Position numbers and translations under genes: made by a program. Source: Qipengyuania algicida (GTDB taxonomy: Bacteria; Pseudomonadota; Alphaproteobacteria; Sphingomonadales; Sphingomonadaceae). Taken from it: a DNA stretch of 64,000 bases. The notes under the pieces were generated by a model. It saw nothing but the letters and a program-made list of their open reading frames with translations. It searched no databases and was not told where the DNA came from. Location: positions 62,001 to 126,000 of the forward strand of contig NZ_WTYA01000001.1 in assembly GCF_009828025.1 (NCBI RefSeq), written 5' to 3'. This document shows, in pieces, positions 59,798-62,741 of this stretch (within the stretch, counting starts at the first letter, position 1; each line of letters opens with the position of its first letter).

Positions 59798-59902
59798 GAT
59801 TGATTTCCTTCAAATTCTGATCGGTTGCGACGCCGGGCGGCGAAAAGCTGCCCGGCGCGTAGATAGCTGGCATTACAAGCGCATGACGCGCCCGGAATGC
59901 GA

Positions 59903-60655
59903 TCAGGCAGCGGCTTCCTCGACCGGCGGCTGCTCCATCGCACCGACGTCACGCCCCGAATCCTGCACACCTTCGCCTCGGCCCGAACGGGCTGCCTGGC
60001 TGATGGCGTCGCAATAAAGGCGCACTGCGCGCGCTGCGTCATCGTTGCCGGGGATCGGGAAAGCGATACCGTTCGGATCGACATTGGTATCGAGCACCGC
60101 AACAACGGGAATGCCGAGCACGCCGGCTTCCTTGATCGCGAGATCTTCCTTGTTGGCGTCGATCACGAACATGACGTCGGGAATGCCGCCCATGTCGCGG
60201 ATACCGCCGAGCGACAATTCGAGCTTGTCGCGCTCGCGGGTGAGCTGGAGCACTTCCTTCTTGGTCAGACCCGAGGTGTCGCCCGAAAGTTGCTCTTCAA
60301 GCGTCTTGAGGCGCTTGATCGACTGGCTGATCGTCTTCCAGTTGGTGAGCATTCCGCCCAACCAGCGATGGTTGACGAAGTGCTGGCCAGCAGCGCGTGC
60401 GGCCTCTGCGATCGGCTCCTGCGCCTGACGCTTGGTGCCAACGAACAGCACCTTGCCGCCCGCGCGGGCCGTGTCGGCCACGAAGTCGAGCGCGCGCGCC
60501 ATGAGTGGCACGGTCTGCGACAGGTCGATAATATGGATGCCGTTACGCGCCCCGAAGATATAGGGCTTCATGCGCGGGTTCCAGCGGTGAGTCTGGTGGC
60601 CGAAGTGAGCGCCGGCCTCGATCAATTGCTGCATCGTGACGGTAGGAGCCGCCAT
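59903..60655 (-). CDS. rpsB: Ribosomal protein S2
   Basis: 250 residues. '[29 protein letters not shown]'-type N-terminus and '[16 protein letters not shown]' are diagnostic. ATG 60655 (MAAPTV) is chosen because AAAGGAA lies 7 nt upstream; the longer frame to 60769 is leader sequence. The C-terminus adds a short acidic, Ala-rich tail. First gene of rpsB-tsf. Confidence 0.97.
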
Positions 60656-60850
60656 AGGTAAATTCCTTTCCGGTTCGACCTCTGGAAAGCAGGGAACCCG
60701 TGGCGGCTTGCGCCCAGGGCACCGGTTATGTGCGCCTTCCATGTGAATTTTGCCCGCCTCGCTTCGCATGACCGCGATAGACTCGGCGAACGGCGACGGC
60801 CCTTAATACCATCGCATCCAAATATCCATTCCTTATTTCATGCGCAAAAG
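60656..60850 (-). other. rpsB leader and upstream region
   Basis: This stretch lies upstream of rpsB on the minus strand. It is GC-rich near the gene and AT-richer from about 60805. It should hold the rpsB promoter and any autoregulatory leader, but I could not identify a convincing stem system or promoter by eye. It joins the SOS-type region at 60851-60956, giving about 300 nt without a gene. Confidence 0.4.
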
Positions 60851-60916
60851 GAACATTGCACGAACATTTGCCTTGACATCACGGAACACAAACGGAACAT
60901 GGAACATACACCGAAC
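60851..60916 (+). promoter_or_regulatory. Three LexA-type boxes (GAAC-N7-GAAC)
   Basis: Three direct repeats of GAAC-N7-GAAC occur at 60851-60865, 60884-60898 and 60902-60916. GTTC-N7-GTTC (here its complement) is the LexA site of alphaproteobacteria. A given eight-base pattern is expected about once per 65 kb per strand, so three in 66 bp is far from chance. The half-sites begin at 60851, 60862, 60884, 60895, 60902 and 60913, mostly multiples of 11 bp apart, so several lie on one DNA face. They end 40 nt before the next start codon. Confidence 0.8.
60873..60901 (+). promoter_or_regulatory. Candidate SOS promoter
   Basis: A perfect -35 element TTGACA (60873-60878) is followed after 17 nt by AACATG (60896-60901), a weak -10 candidate. 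LexA box 2 lies between and over the -10, so repressor bound there would block RNA polymerase. The exact -10 is uncertain. Confidence 0.5.
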
Positions 60917-60925
60917 GTTGGCGTT
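60901..60925 (+). promoter_or_regulatory. Possible EcfG promoter overlapping LexA box 3
   Basis: GGAAC (60901-60905), 16-nt spacer, CGTT (60922-60925) fits the general stress sigma factor motif. Transcription would start about 25 nt before the small membrane protein ATG. The GGAAC half is shared with LexA box 3, so the match may be a by-product of the repeats. Confidence 0.3.
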
Positions 60926-60956
60926 CCAATTTCTGACAGTTCAAGGGAGTAAAACC

Positions 60957-61193
60957 ATGATCGCTTTTCTGCTTCCGATGATTTTGACCGGTATTGCATT
61001 CTTCAGCGCAATCGCGCTGGCCGATTCGGGGCTGCGCTGGGTTTCGGCATATCGTCGGCTATATCCGCCGACTTCCAAGGCTTGTGAAGCAGAACAGCCG
61101 ACGTCTTGTCGCCCTCGCCCGATCCGTCAGGCTACAGTTTCCATTGCGCGCCCGATCGCTAAATCGCAGCAGCTGACGCGCGCTGCCGCCTGA
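60957..61193 (+). CDS. Small single-pass membrane protein under SOS-type control
   Basis: 78 residues from ATG 60957, with AAGGGAG about 7 nt upstream. Residues about 2-22 form one membrane helix ('FLLPMILTGIAFFSAIALA'). The rest is basic (several Arg/Lys) with two Cys, probably cytoplasmic by the positive-inside rule if the N-terminus is outside. No family recognised. The three LexA-type boxes upstream suggest induction by DNA damage. Small SOS-induced inner-membrane proteins that block division are known in Caulobacter (SidA); a similar role is inference from size, topology and control only. The last 35 nt overlap the convergent pssA end. Confidence 0.7.
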   Translation: MIAFLLPMILTGIAFFSAIALADSGLRWVSAYRRLYPPTSKACEAEQPTSCRPRPIRQATVSIARPIAKSQQLTRAAA

Positions 61194-61983
61194 CCTTTGC
61201 ATACCGGATGAAGCTGTAGGGAATAAGTGCCAGGTAACCACAGCAGATCACTGCCAGTGTCCACCAAGGCTCCTGTAAAAGCGCTGCGAACATCATTCCG
61301 ACGAAGGCAATCAGCCAAAGGCGGATGTTGCGCTTGGGCCGTAGCGATGCCCAGCTCAATGTCGCGACGTTCGAAATCATCAACAGTGCGATCATCGCGA
61401 TCCATATTCCGACCAGCAGGGGGTTACGGAACAAGTCCTCACCTGTCGCCTGCCACAGATAAAATGGCAAGAAAGCCAGACCTGCCCCGACCGGGGCAGG
61501 AATGCCGGTCAGGAAGCCGGCCGATTTGTGGGGCTGCTCGTCGACATCGATCTGCGCATTGAAACGAGCAAGACGGAGGGCGCAGCACACGGCGAAGGCA
61601 AGCGCGGCAAACCATCCGATCCGGGGGGCTTCACTCAGGCTCCACAGATAGATCACGATGGCCGGAGCAGTGCCGAAAGACAGCGAATCGGCCAGACTGT
61701 CGAGCTCGGCACCGAACCGCGATTGCGCCTTCAACAGCCGCGCGATGCGCCCATCGATGCCGTCGAGCAATCCGGCCAGAATGATGGCGAAGACTGCCTC
61801 ATGCCAGTCGCCCGAAATCGCAAATCGGATCCCGGTAAGCCCGGAACACAGCGCTGCAGCGGTAATTGCATTGGGTAGCAAACCCCGAAGCGGCAGTCCG
61901 CGTGCCTGTGGAGGACGTGAACTAGGTTCCTCATCCTCGGCGGCTTTCGGGCCGAGCCGTGCTCGATCGAACGAATCTGCCAC
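61159..61983 (-). CDS. pssA: CDP-diacylglycerol--serine O-phosphatidyltransferase
   Basis: 274 residues with about seven to eight membrane segments. It makes phosphatidylserine. The CDP-alcohol phosphotransferase motif is complete: D77-G78, A81-R82, G91, D95, D99. The N-terminal 30 residues are hydrophilic. The GTG start at 61983 shares one base with the psd stop (TAGTG), so the two enzymes of phosphatidylethanolamine synthesis are coupled. The 3' end overlaps the small SOS-type gene. Confidence 0.95.
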   Translation of the reverse strand: MADSFDRARLGPKAAEDEEPSSRPPQARGLPLRGLLPNAITAAALCSGLTGIRFAISGDWHEAVFAIILAGLLDGIDGRIARLLKAQSRFGAELDSLADSLSFGTAPAIVIYLWSLSEAPRIGWFAALAFAVCCALRLARFNAQIDVDEQPHKSAGFLTGIPAPVGAGLAFLPFYLWQATGEDLFRNPLLVGIWIAMIALLMISNVATLSWASLRPKRNIRLWLIAFVGMMFAALLQEPWWTLAVICCGYLALIPYSFIRYAKVRRQRASAAAI

Positions 61984-62741
61984 TATTGTTTGATTCCCTC
62001 GATCAGCTTCTGCGCCCCCGCCTCGGCAAGGATCGTCTCACCCGCAACGACACGCTGGCCCAGCAAGACTTTCGCATCTGTACCGGCAGGCAAATACACA
62101 TCGACCCGACTGCCGAATCGGATCAAGCCTACCCGCTGGCCCGCGCCGACCATGTCGCCCGGCTTGACGAACGGCACGATCCGCCGCGCGACCAGACCTG
62201 CGATTTGGGTAAAGCCGATCCGCAGCCCATCGGCACGCTCAACAAGAAAATGCTGACGCTCATTGTCCTCGCTCGCCTTGTCGAGATCGGCATTGAGGAA
62301 CTTGCCCGGAATATAGACCACCCGACGCACAACTCCCGCAATCGGGGACCGGTTGATGTGAACGTCGAACACACTCATGAAAATCGAGATGCGCGTCACC
62401 TGGCCTTCAGGAAGTCCGCCCATCCCGCTGCCATCGTCCACCCGCAGCTCCTCCGGCGGATCGACTTGCATGATCAGCGAAACCATGCCGTCTGCCGGCG
62501 CGACGATCAGATCATCGCCTTGTGGGACGACGCGTTCGGGATCGCGGAAAAAGGCGAATACGCCCAGCGACAGGAACAGCAGCGGCCAACCGATCGGCCC
62601 CCAGCCGAACACCAGCAGCACCAGCAGGCTGATCGCAACCGCGATCAGGCCGAATTTGCGCCCTTCAGGGTGGATAGAGGGCCAGTTCCAGTGCGCGTCG
62701 CCCCGGCCACGGTTATCGAGTAAATCACCTGCCATCGGCAT
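61983..62741 (-). CDS. psd: Phosphatidylserine decarboxylase proenzyme
   Basis: 252 residues from ATG 62741. It decarboxylates phosphatidylserine to phosphatidylethanolamine. It belongs to the short group typical of alphaproteobacteria. The self-cleavage site is the Gly-Ser of 'RFGSRVDVY', Ser about residue 211, which becomes the pyruvoyl cofactor. '[10 protein letters not shown]' is also conserved. Two hydrophobic segments near 34-65 anchor the protein. Upstream of pssA on the same transcript. Confidence 0.94.

Follow-up and report, generated by a model that had tools for sequence, protein, structure and literature searches.

A small membrane protein with a conserved LexA-box promoter is a candidate SOS division inhibitor of the Sphingomonadaceae

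Membrane proteins that stop cell division upon DNA damage have been described from several groups of bacteria. In Caulobacter crescentus, SidA is, as summarized in PMC4211646, an inner-membrane SOS inhibitor of just 29 amino acids that acts on FtsW. A second protein from Caulobacter, DidA, is a small membrane protein that is made upon damage and binds FtsN, a part of the divisome; the same account treats it as independent of the SOS response (PMC4211646). YneA from Bacillus and SosA from Staphylococcus are described as SOS-controlled membrane proteins that stop division, and DinQ from Escherichia coli is described as a toxic peptide with a single transmembrane segment that is also under SOS control. 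YneA and SosA carry extracytoplasmic domains. TisB and DinQ are controlled by antisense RNAs and are much shorter than the protein that we consider here.

Here we describe a gene from the Sphingomonadaceae, which we call X, in a window of 64,000 nucleotides from Qipengyuania algicida. Like SidA, X is a small alphaproteobacterial protein that appears to be LexA-controlled, via the box GTTC-N7-GTTC, and to reside in the inner membrane (PMC4211646, PMC12700426). However, X is longer (70 to 111 amino acids across 109 loci, and 78 in the window, versus 29) and it has its own neighborhood, between rpsB and pssA; we liken it to SidA by description only. With DidA it would share being a small membrane protein made upon damage, but DidA is SOS-independent whereas X has LexA operators (PMC4211646). 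Its likeness to YneA and SosA is that of an SOS-controlled membrane protein, as judged from the boxes, but the tail of X is predicted to be cytoplasmic and is basic, and the family libraries show no sequence relation. TisB and DinQ are also SOS-controlled, short, and hydrophobic, but X, at 78 residues, is longer and has a conserved juxtamembrane segment and a long tail. The frame of X, its promoter, its box, its neighborhood, and its architecture are all conserved. We are nearly certain, from comparing sequences, that LexA controls this conserved membrane protein. It also seems somewhat better than an even bet that X is a LexA-repressed SOS gene whose product puts a hold on the divisome at the membrane, with a logic like that of SidA. 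With LexA operators ahead of it in nearly all of the sphingomonad genomes where it could be placed, X is a strong candidate for the role of pausing division in these bacteria while DNA is repaired. Among the entries listed by searches of open-licence papers, we found no SOS division inhibitor from sphingomonads, nor any work on SOS or LexA in sphingomonads or Erythrobacter that names the X gene.

The preliminary description of this stretch had reported three boxes, a TTGACA, a good ribosome binding site, and a 78-codon open reading frame (ORF) at 60851-61193, and all of these are present (Table 1). The array of three boxes upstream of X is a real feature. The divergent neighbor is, we presume, rpsB, on the basis of its recognizable sequence and its conserved matches.

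Table 1. Coordinates of X, its putative operators and promoter, and its neighbors within the Q. algicida window
Feature	Position	Strand	Remark
LexA box 1 (GAACATTGCACGAAC)	60851..60865	+	upstream of -35; rank 18 of 85 genome sites by position weight matrix
-35 element TTGACA of X promoter	60873..60878	+	TTGAC 11 nt before box in 86/109 homologous promoters
LexA box 2 (GAACACAAACGGAAC)	60884..60898	+	operator position conserved in the family, between -35 and -10
Weak -10-like hexamer AACATG	60896..60901	+	overlaps second half-site of box 2; 17-nt spacer from TTGACA
LexA box 3 (GAACATACACCGAAC)	60902..60916	+	over the expected (inferred) transcription start; rank 23-24 of 85 by position weight matrix
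Short inverted repeat GAACG-TTGG-CGTTC	60913..60926	.	overlaps end of box 3; listed by terminator scan, - strand
Ribosome binding site AAGGGAG of X	60943..60949	+	7 nt before ATG
X, 78-aa predicted single-pass membrane protein	60957..61193	+	ATG at 60957, stop at 61191-61193
Tail-to-tail overlap of X and pssA, 35 nt	61159..61193	.	same phase in 108/109 loci
pssA, phosphatidylserine synthase (CDP-alcohol phosphatidyltransferase)	61159..61983	-	convergent neighbor of X; PF01066, PF08009
rpsB (ribosomal protein S2)	59903..60655	-	divergent neighbor of X; start at conserved MAAPTVTMQ

Read on the opposite strand, the direct repeat GAAC-N7-GAAC is GTTC-N7-GTTC, the LexA box of alphaproteobacteria. 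The window contains exactly three exact copies, all of them inside 66 bp (60851-60916). Three copies per 64 kb is unremarkable (1.93 are expected, and 29 of 100 shuffles had three or more), and genome-wide (3.2 Mb in 21 contigs) there are 85 exact copies versus 86 for the reversed control pattern. Apart from the array upstream of X, exact sites do not cluster anywhere in the genome, as no other two lie less than 100 bp apart; simple arithmetic from the density of the 85 sites gives about 5e-4 triples of such closeness per genome. The TTGACA at 60873 was passed over by a generic promoter scan because it lacks a good -10; the scan called 60933-60961 instead, over the start codon of X.

Other genes of the same genome carry this type of box. 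LexA has one match in the genome; a box precedes this domain match by 72 bp, and another precedes the start of recA by 80 nt. The same type of box also lies ahead of pcrA/uvrD, radA, dinB-like/SRAP, and radical-SAM genes. We inspected the neighboring genes of twenty sites, which were picked mostly for a good 3' half, and several of these had no recognizable SOS gene beside them. We then scored the 85 sites with a matrix built from seven boxes (those of lexA, recA, pcrA/uvrD, the dinB-like gene, radA, and two radical-SAM genes). The boxes of X rank 18, 23, and 24, just under the box of recA (17), so they are plausible but individually middling LexA sites.

Some of the other sites deserve mention. 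Three identical, high-scoring LexA-like sites (GTTCCTTTTATGTTC) lie on one contig (C1:1267, C1:31925, and C1:45223 of the window's genome, G000; loci L076, L077, and L078). They may mark further SOS genes; one nearby ORF was scanned for each, without a Pfam match. At L080 (1562-1576) and L085 (1593-1607), the sequences are near-identical: a gene for a dinB-like polymerase and an SRAP gene point away from each other, with the same LexA box between them. This appears to be a duplicated SOS module, whose second copy we recognized by its identical start. The top-scoring boxes at L079 (1594-1608) and L086 (1560-1574) lie ahead of two radical-SAM genes, an rSAM_link_UDG gene (putatively for DNA repair) and a PA0069-type gene, respectively. 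Finally, a LexA-like site at L083 (1586-1600) lies ahead of a gene that matches the Tle1-like phospholipase domain (PF09994).

X is found between rpsB and pssA across the Sphingomonadaceae. When 61 genomes were searched with the single sequence of X, 26 of them yielded a total of 27 weak matches, and 22 of the 27 have the rpsB/pssA placement (the window's own and those from 21 of 36 genus mates). The five early matches without rpsB (L011, L013, L015, L019, and L027) were taken as false and dropped; four of these were the sole match in their own genomes (G002, G024, G026, and G035). The true matches have MFALFL...VLADSGLRWWSAF in common. A profile of X matches at least 56 of 298 genomes of the family, from 21 of 96 genera, which is a lower bound because the candidates from the first look were only partly scored. 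When we searched by place instead, a box together with an ORF turned up in 34 of the 36 genus mates; one of the remaining two gave no rpsB and the other was outside this search. In a search with one relative's protein, we found no X on plasmids, and none of the viral contigs yielded a relative.

A LexA box lies ahead of X in 110 of 113 loci where pssA is adjacent, or in 111 if we count one locus with an inserted gene. (We quote this frequency, with identical upstream sequences counted as one locus, because the set of 109 loci that we use below was selected for having a box.) The 113 comprise 42 loci from the genus, 32 loci with profile hits and pssA, and 39 loci from profile-negative members of the family. 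Among the genus loci, a box lies within the 700 nt searched in 41 of 42, and the 42nd box is further off, behind the inserted gene. In locus L026 (L028 is from the same genome), rpsB and X are separated by an additional ORF of about 255 amino acids, behind which the box and X stay together. All 32 of the profile-hit loci have the box. The early ones among the genus loci were picked up by means of X, as were the profile-hit loci; those located via rpsB were not. To go by place beyond the profile matches, we chose 55 genomes of the family, one per genus, that lacked a profile match, and fetched rpsB rather than X. In the 39 where pssA adjoins rpsB, 37 have the box, and 36 have both the box and a short ORF with an N-terminal membrane stretch. 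L106 and L110 have the ORF but not the exact box; in L179/L206 the box is present and the ORF has only 52 codons' worth of amino acids (52 aa). The comparison of homologues that had been proposed in the preliminary description did reveal a family of X, with the expected box upstream.

In the other 16 of the 55 genomes, pssA was not seen adjoining rpsB (in one, at a contig end), and just 1 of the 16 has a box on the rpsB side. For 15 of these 16 genomes, we found pssA elsewhere. A box lies beside it in 12 (one of them in the opposite orientation), and 9 have an X-like ORF there; the box is missing from 3, and another 3 have it without an X-like ORF. Outside of the family, 33 loci (5 from other families of the order and 28 from other orders) contained one box and no small membrane ORF. 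The loci from other orders came from 28 of the 39 genomes searched, and three of them had less than 600 nt of upstream sequence. We considered whether synteny could be a sign of orthology with SidA and rejected this, as the 33 loci give X no link to other orders. As an aside, members of the genus look alike by eye in the region ahead of rpsB (60656-60780; TTCCTTTCCGGTT...CTCTGGAA). It is perhaps a ribosomal-protein leader; it does not match any Rfam family.

The promoter has a fixed geometry. The first base of TTGAC precedes the box by exactly 11 nt in 86 of 109 promoters, and another 17 pairs of TTGAC and box are 9, 10, or 12 nt apart. Because TTGAC sits 11 nt ahead, the box fills the spacer and reaches into the -10, and this geometry points at X. 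Box 2 (60884) is the window's equivalent of the conserved operator. At the -10 position, 49 of the 86 relatives have AACATT, versus AACATG in the window. Control spacings are rare in the 109 upstream regions (5 for N6, 3 for N8, and 2 for the reversed pattern). LexA control is thus supported by the constant promoter position of the box throughout the family and by the presence of this type of box at lexA, recA, and repair genes of the window's genome.

Of the 109 promoters, 95 carry a single box, 10 carry two, and 4 carry three. By this comparison, boxes 1 and 3 of the window are extra, and the triple array is a peculiarity of the lineage that does not define the family. We rejected the idea that three boxes are generally needed. 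It had also been proposed that three boxes imply very tight repression, as for a toxic protein, but with so many single-box relatives this does not generalize and could hold for a few lineages at most. Triple operators are unusual, given that about 97% of SOS promoters in Caulobacter carry one box, as reported in PMC12700426.

The preliminary description took the absence of a conserved reading frame as grounds to give up its proposal. In fact, the frame of X is conserved, and the selection on it is frame-specific. Across 41 genus loci, with the part that overlaps pssA trimmed, the median dN/dS is 0.54 (585 pairs, which are not independent of each other). In the same loci, pN/pS is 0.50 for the part with the helix and 0.86 for the tail, versus 0.97 and 1.21 in the shifted frames. 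These ratios argue that the frame is under purifying selection, which is strongest in the helix.

As had been proposed, X is predicted to be a single-pass membrane protein with an N-terminal helix and a basic tail, and this holds across the family. The protein in the window has one strongly hydrophobic stretch near its N terminus (Kyte-Doolittle 2.29) and a tail with a net charge of +7. AlphaFold2 predicts a single helix at residues 5-35 followed by a disordered tail, with a mean pLDDT of only 65; by blocks, pLDDT is 82-91 for residues 1-30 and 72 for residues 31-40. Across five X sequences it again gave a helix at 5-35 and a tail that is mostly below 50. A conserved segment, LADSGLRW (LADSGLRWW), closes the membrane stretch. 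In none of the 109 loci did we find a second membrane stretch. Our ORF picker demanded an N-terminal hydrophobic stretch, which in part guarantees a membrane helix, but tail charge was not among its criteria. The N-terminal flank is uncharged in 105 of 109 members, and the tail is positive in 107 of 109 (median +7). By the positive-inside rule for membrane topology, the N terminus should be outside and the tail should be cytoplasmic. X diverges fast outside of the helix, and a single conserved surface for a partner is not obvious. The protein in the window has no match in Pfam or NCBIfam. Comparing 21 members to family libraries gave scattered weak matches, the best of which was to a phage holin for one member (E = 8.5e-4); others were to IcmT_TraK for two (0.063), DUF3774 for two (0.028), DUF308 for one (0.027), and a few more. 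Matches to solved structures were at chance level (E = 0.43 and up), and the family libraries gave no link from X to known division inhibitors.

The 3' end of X lies inside pssA, tail to tail and in one phase, in 108 of 109 loci, with an overlap of 17-107 nt. The last two residues of X are Ala-Ala in 101 of 109 loci, and ALAA closes the tmRNA tag in the window's genome. We considered a ClpXP-type degron, which would fit an inhibitor with fast turnover, and set this idea aside because the antisense overlap confounds it. The end of X lies nearly always opposite the basic C-terminal motif of pssA (for example, RIKRQ or KVRRQ), and the usual codons for this type of motif, read on the other strand, give Ala-Ala-stop. 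Because the overlap explains the Ala-Ala end, we do not use it as evidence for a degron. Only a handful of X ends lie off this motif, and they do not agree: RLAA (L209, no overlap) and RQAA (L217), but also LAS (L072, no overlap) and IRA (L216).

What else could X be? A TisB- or DinQ-like peptide that perturbs the energy state or the permeability of the inner membrane, so that cells become dormant and division stops as a secondary effect, would also have LexA boxes, a single short hydrophobic helix, and, in some lineages, extra operators. DinQ itself is described as SOS-controlled, toxic, and single-transmembrane, and the one weak holin match among the 21 members points the same way. But X has a tail of at least 40 residues and the conserved segment LADSGLRWW, while TisB and DinQ are much shorter, and a scan of 59800-62000 with Rfam, which covers described families only, recognized no antisense antitoxin RNA. 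We think this reading is unlikely. X might instead have a different job at the membrane in the SOS response, as an adaptor for a protease or a lipid enzyme, for example, or by tethering DNA with its basic tail; this strikes us as similarly improbable. The tail is basic in 107 of 109 members and the neighbor, pssA, makes phospholipid, but the tail is weakly constrained (pN/pS of 0.86) and we saw no conserved binding motif in it.

The overlap raises the possibility that the transcript is the point: SOS transcription across the 3' end of pssA would lower phosphatidylserine synthase and hence phosphatidylethanolamine, and the peptide would be secondary. Convergent transcription of X does run into the coding region of pssA nearly everywhere, and the pair is kept in most of the genomes where rpsB is elsewhere. 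On the other hand, physical overlap of the genes can by itself account for their lasting linkage, the length of the overlap varies, and the part of X outside pssA shows frame-specific purifying selection, so we give this idea only a small chance. Least of all do we believe that the boxes serve rpsB or pssA, or arose by chance, with X as a spurious ORF. The boxes are about 200 nt upstream of rpsB, and the exact pattern is not over-represented in the genome (85 versus 86). But the geometry is fixed relative to a promoter that is directed at X, the box persists beside X where rpsB lies elsewhere, and the frame is conserved; these results already contradict this reading, which is very improbable.

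In many relatives, the LexA box is followed, ahead of the start codon, by same-strand repeats of the form YTNTCNACAG (TTATCCACA, TTTTCCACA, CTGTCAACA, TTGTCGACA). Their core, [TGA]TCNACA, is a pattern that we settled on with the sequences in view; the + strand has 127 copies and the other strand 18, with 10 expected. The core is present in 77 of 109 loci; core-to-core distances peak at 11 nt (26 cases) and 12 nt (15 cases), and 39 of 109 loci have a pair at one of these distances. There are 17 exact copies of TTATNCACA on the + strand and 3 on the other, versus 1 in a control from the rpsB side that is nearly twice as long. Neither exact TTATNCACA nor 11/12-bp pairs occur in 72 kb of background from the genus (the first 8 kb of nine genomes), and we recognized no origin in these stretches. 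DnaA boxes set 2 bp apart resemble such arrays with a step of 11-12 bp, but the commonest repeat, CTGTCAACA (42 of 126), is a poor match to the DnaA box. A fixed 11-bp pattern gave two matches in ten genomes of the genus, neither of them at X, while the genus arrays that we inspected often step by 12 bp. These two matches, L226 and L227, are the sole exact double repeats of this kind in the ten genomes, and by eye the nearby ORFs are porin-like and sensor-kinase-like.

The copy of the promoter in the window has no DnaA-like repeat. The core is present in 73 of 95 single-box promoters, in 4 of 14 with more than one box, and in none of the four with three boxes (Fisher p = 6e-4 for one versus more boxes, uncorrected for relatedness). 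There is a precedent in uvrB from E. coli, where LexA and DnaA both act on one SOS promoter (PMC6015884). The likeness is in having LexA boxes and DnaA or DnaA-like boxes within one promoter; the difference is that DnaA was shown by experiment at uvrB, whereas the array in the relatives of X comes from sequence only and is missing from the window (PMC6015884). It is possible, but we would bet against it, that X is the effector of a checkpoint common to the sphingomonad family, whose promoter reads both damage (via LexA) and the state of replication initiation (via DnaA at the tandem repeats past the LexA box) and sets a hold on division at the membrane. Some lineages, including that of the window, would then have swapped the DnaA-like repeats for extra LexA operators.

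Returning to X as an SOS-induced hold on the divisome, we infer LexA binding, derepression, and the topology of X from what is known of these families, and division as the target by analogy with SidA, DidA, YneA, and SosA. In undamaged cells, LexA would sit on the operator over the spacer and the -10 of the X promoter and exclude RNA polymerase; in the window's copy, two additional operators would add to this repression. DNA damage would lead to cleavage of LexA, driven by RecA, and so to derepression and a burst of X. The protein would enter the inner membrane with its N terminus outside and a single helix across it; the juxtamembrane segment and the basic, disordered tail would face the cytoplasm. 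The helix and the juxtamembrane segment would most likely bind a component of the divisome that is embedded in the membrane, and X would hold septation until the damage is repaired.

Sphingomonads are widespread in the environment and in industry. In X they have one conserved gene with a located operator, across dozens of genera, from a family that is unnamed in the libraries that we searched. If X acts as we propose, it would extend a pattern in which every bacterial group has its own small membrane effector of the SOS response. And the promoter of X in many of the relatives suggests that damage control and replication control may meet there directly.
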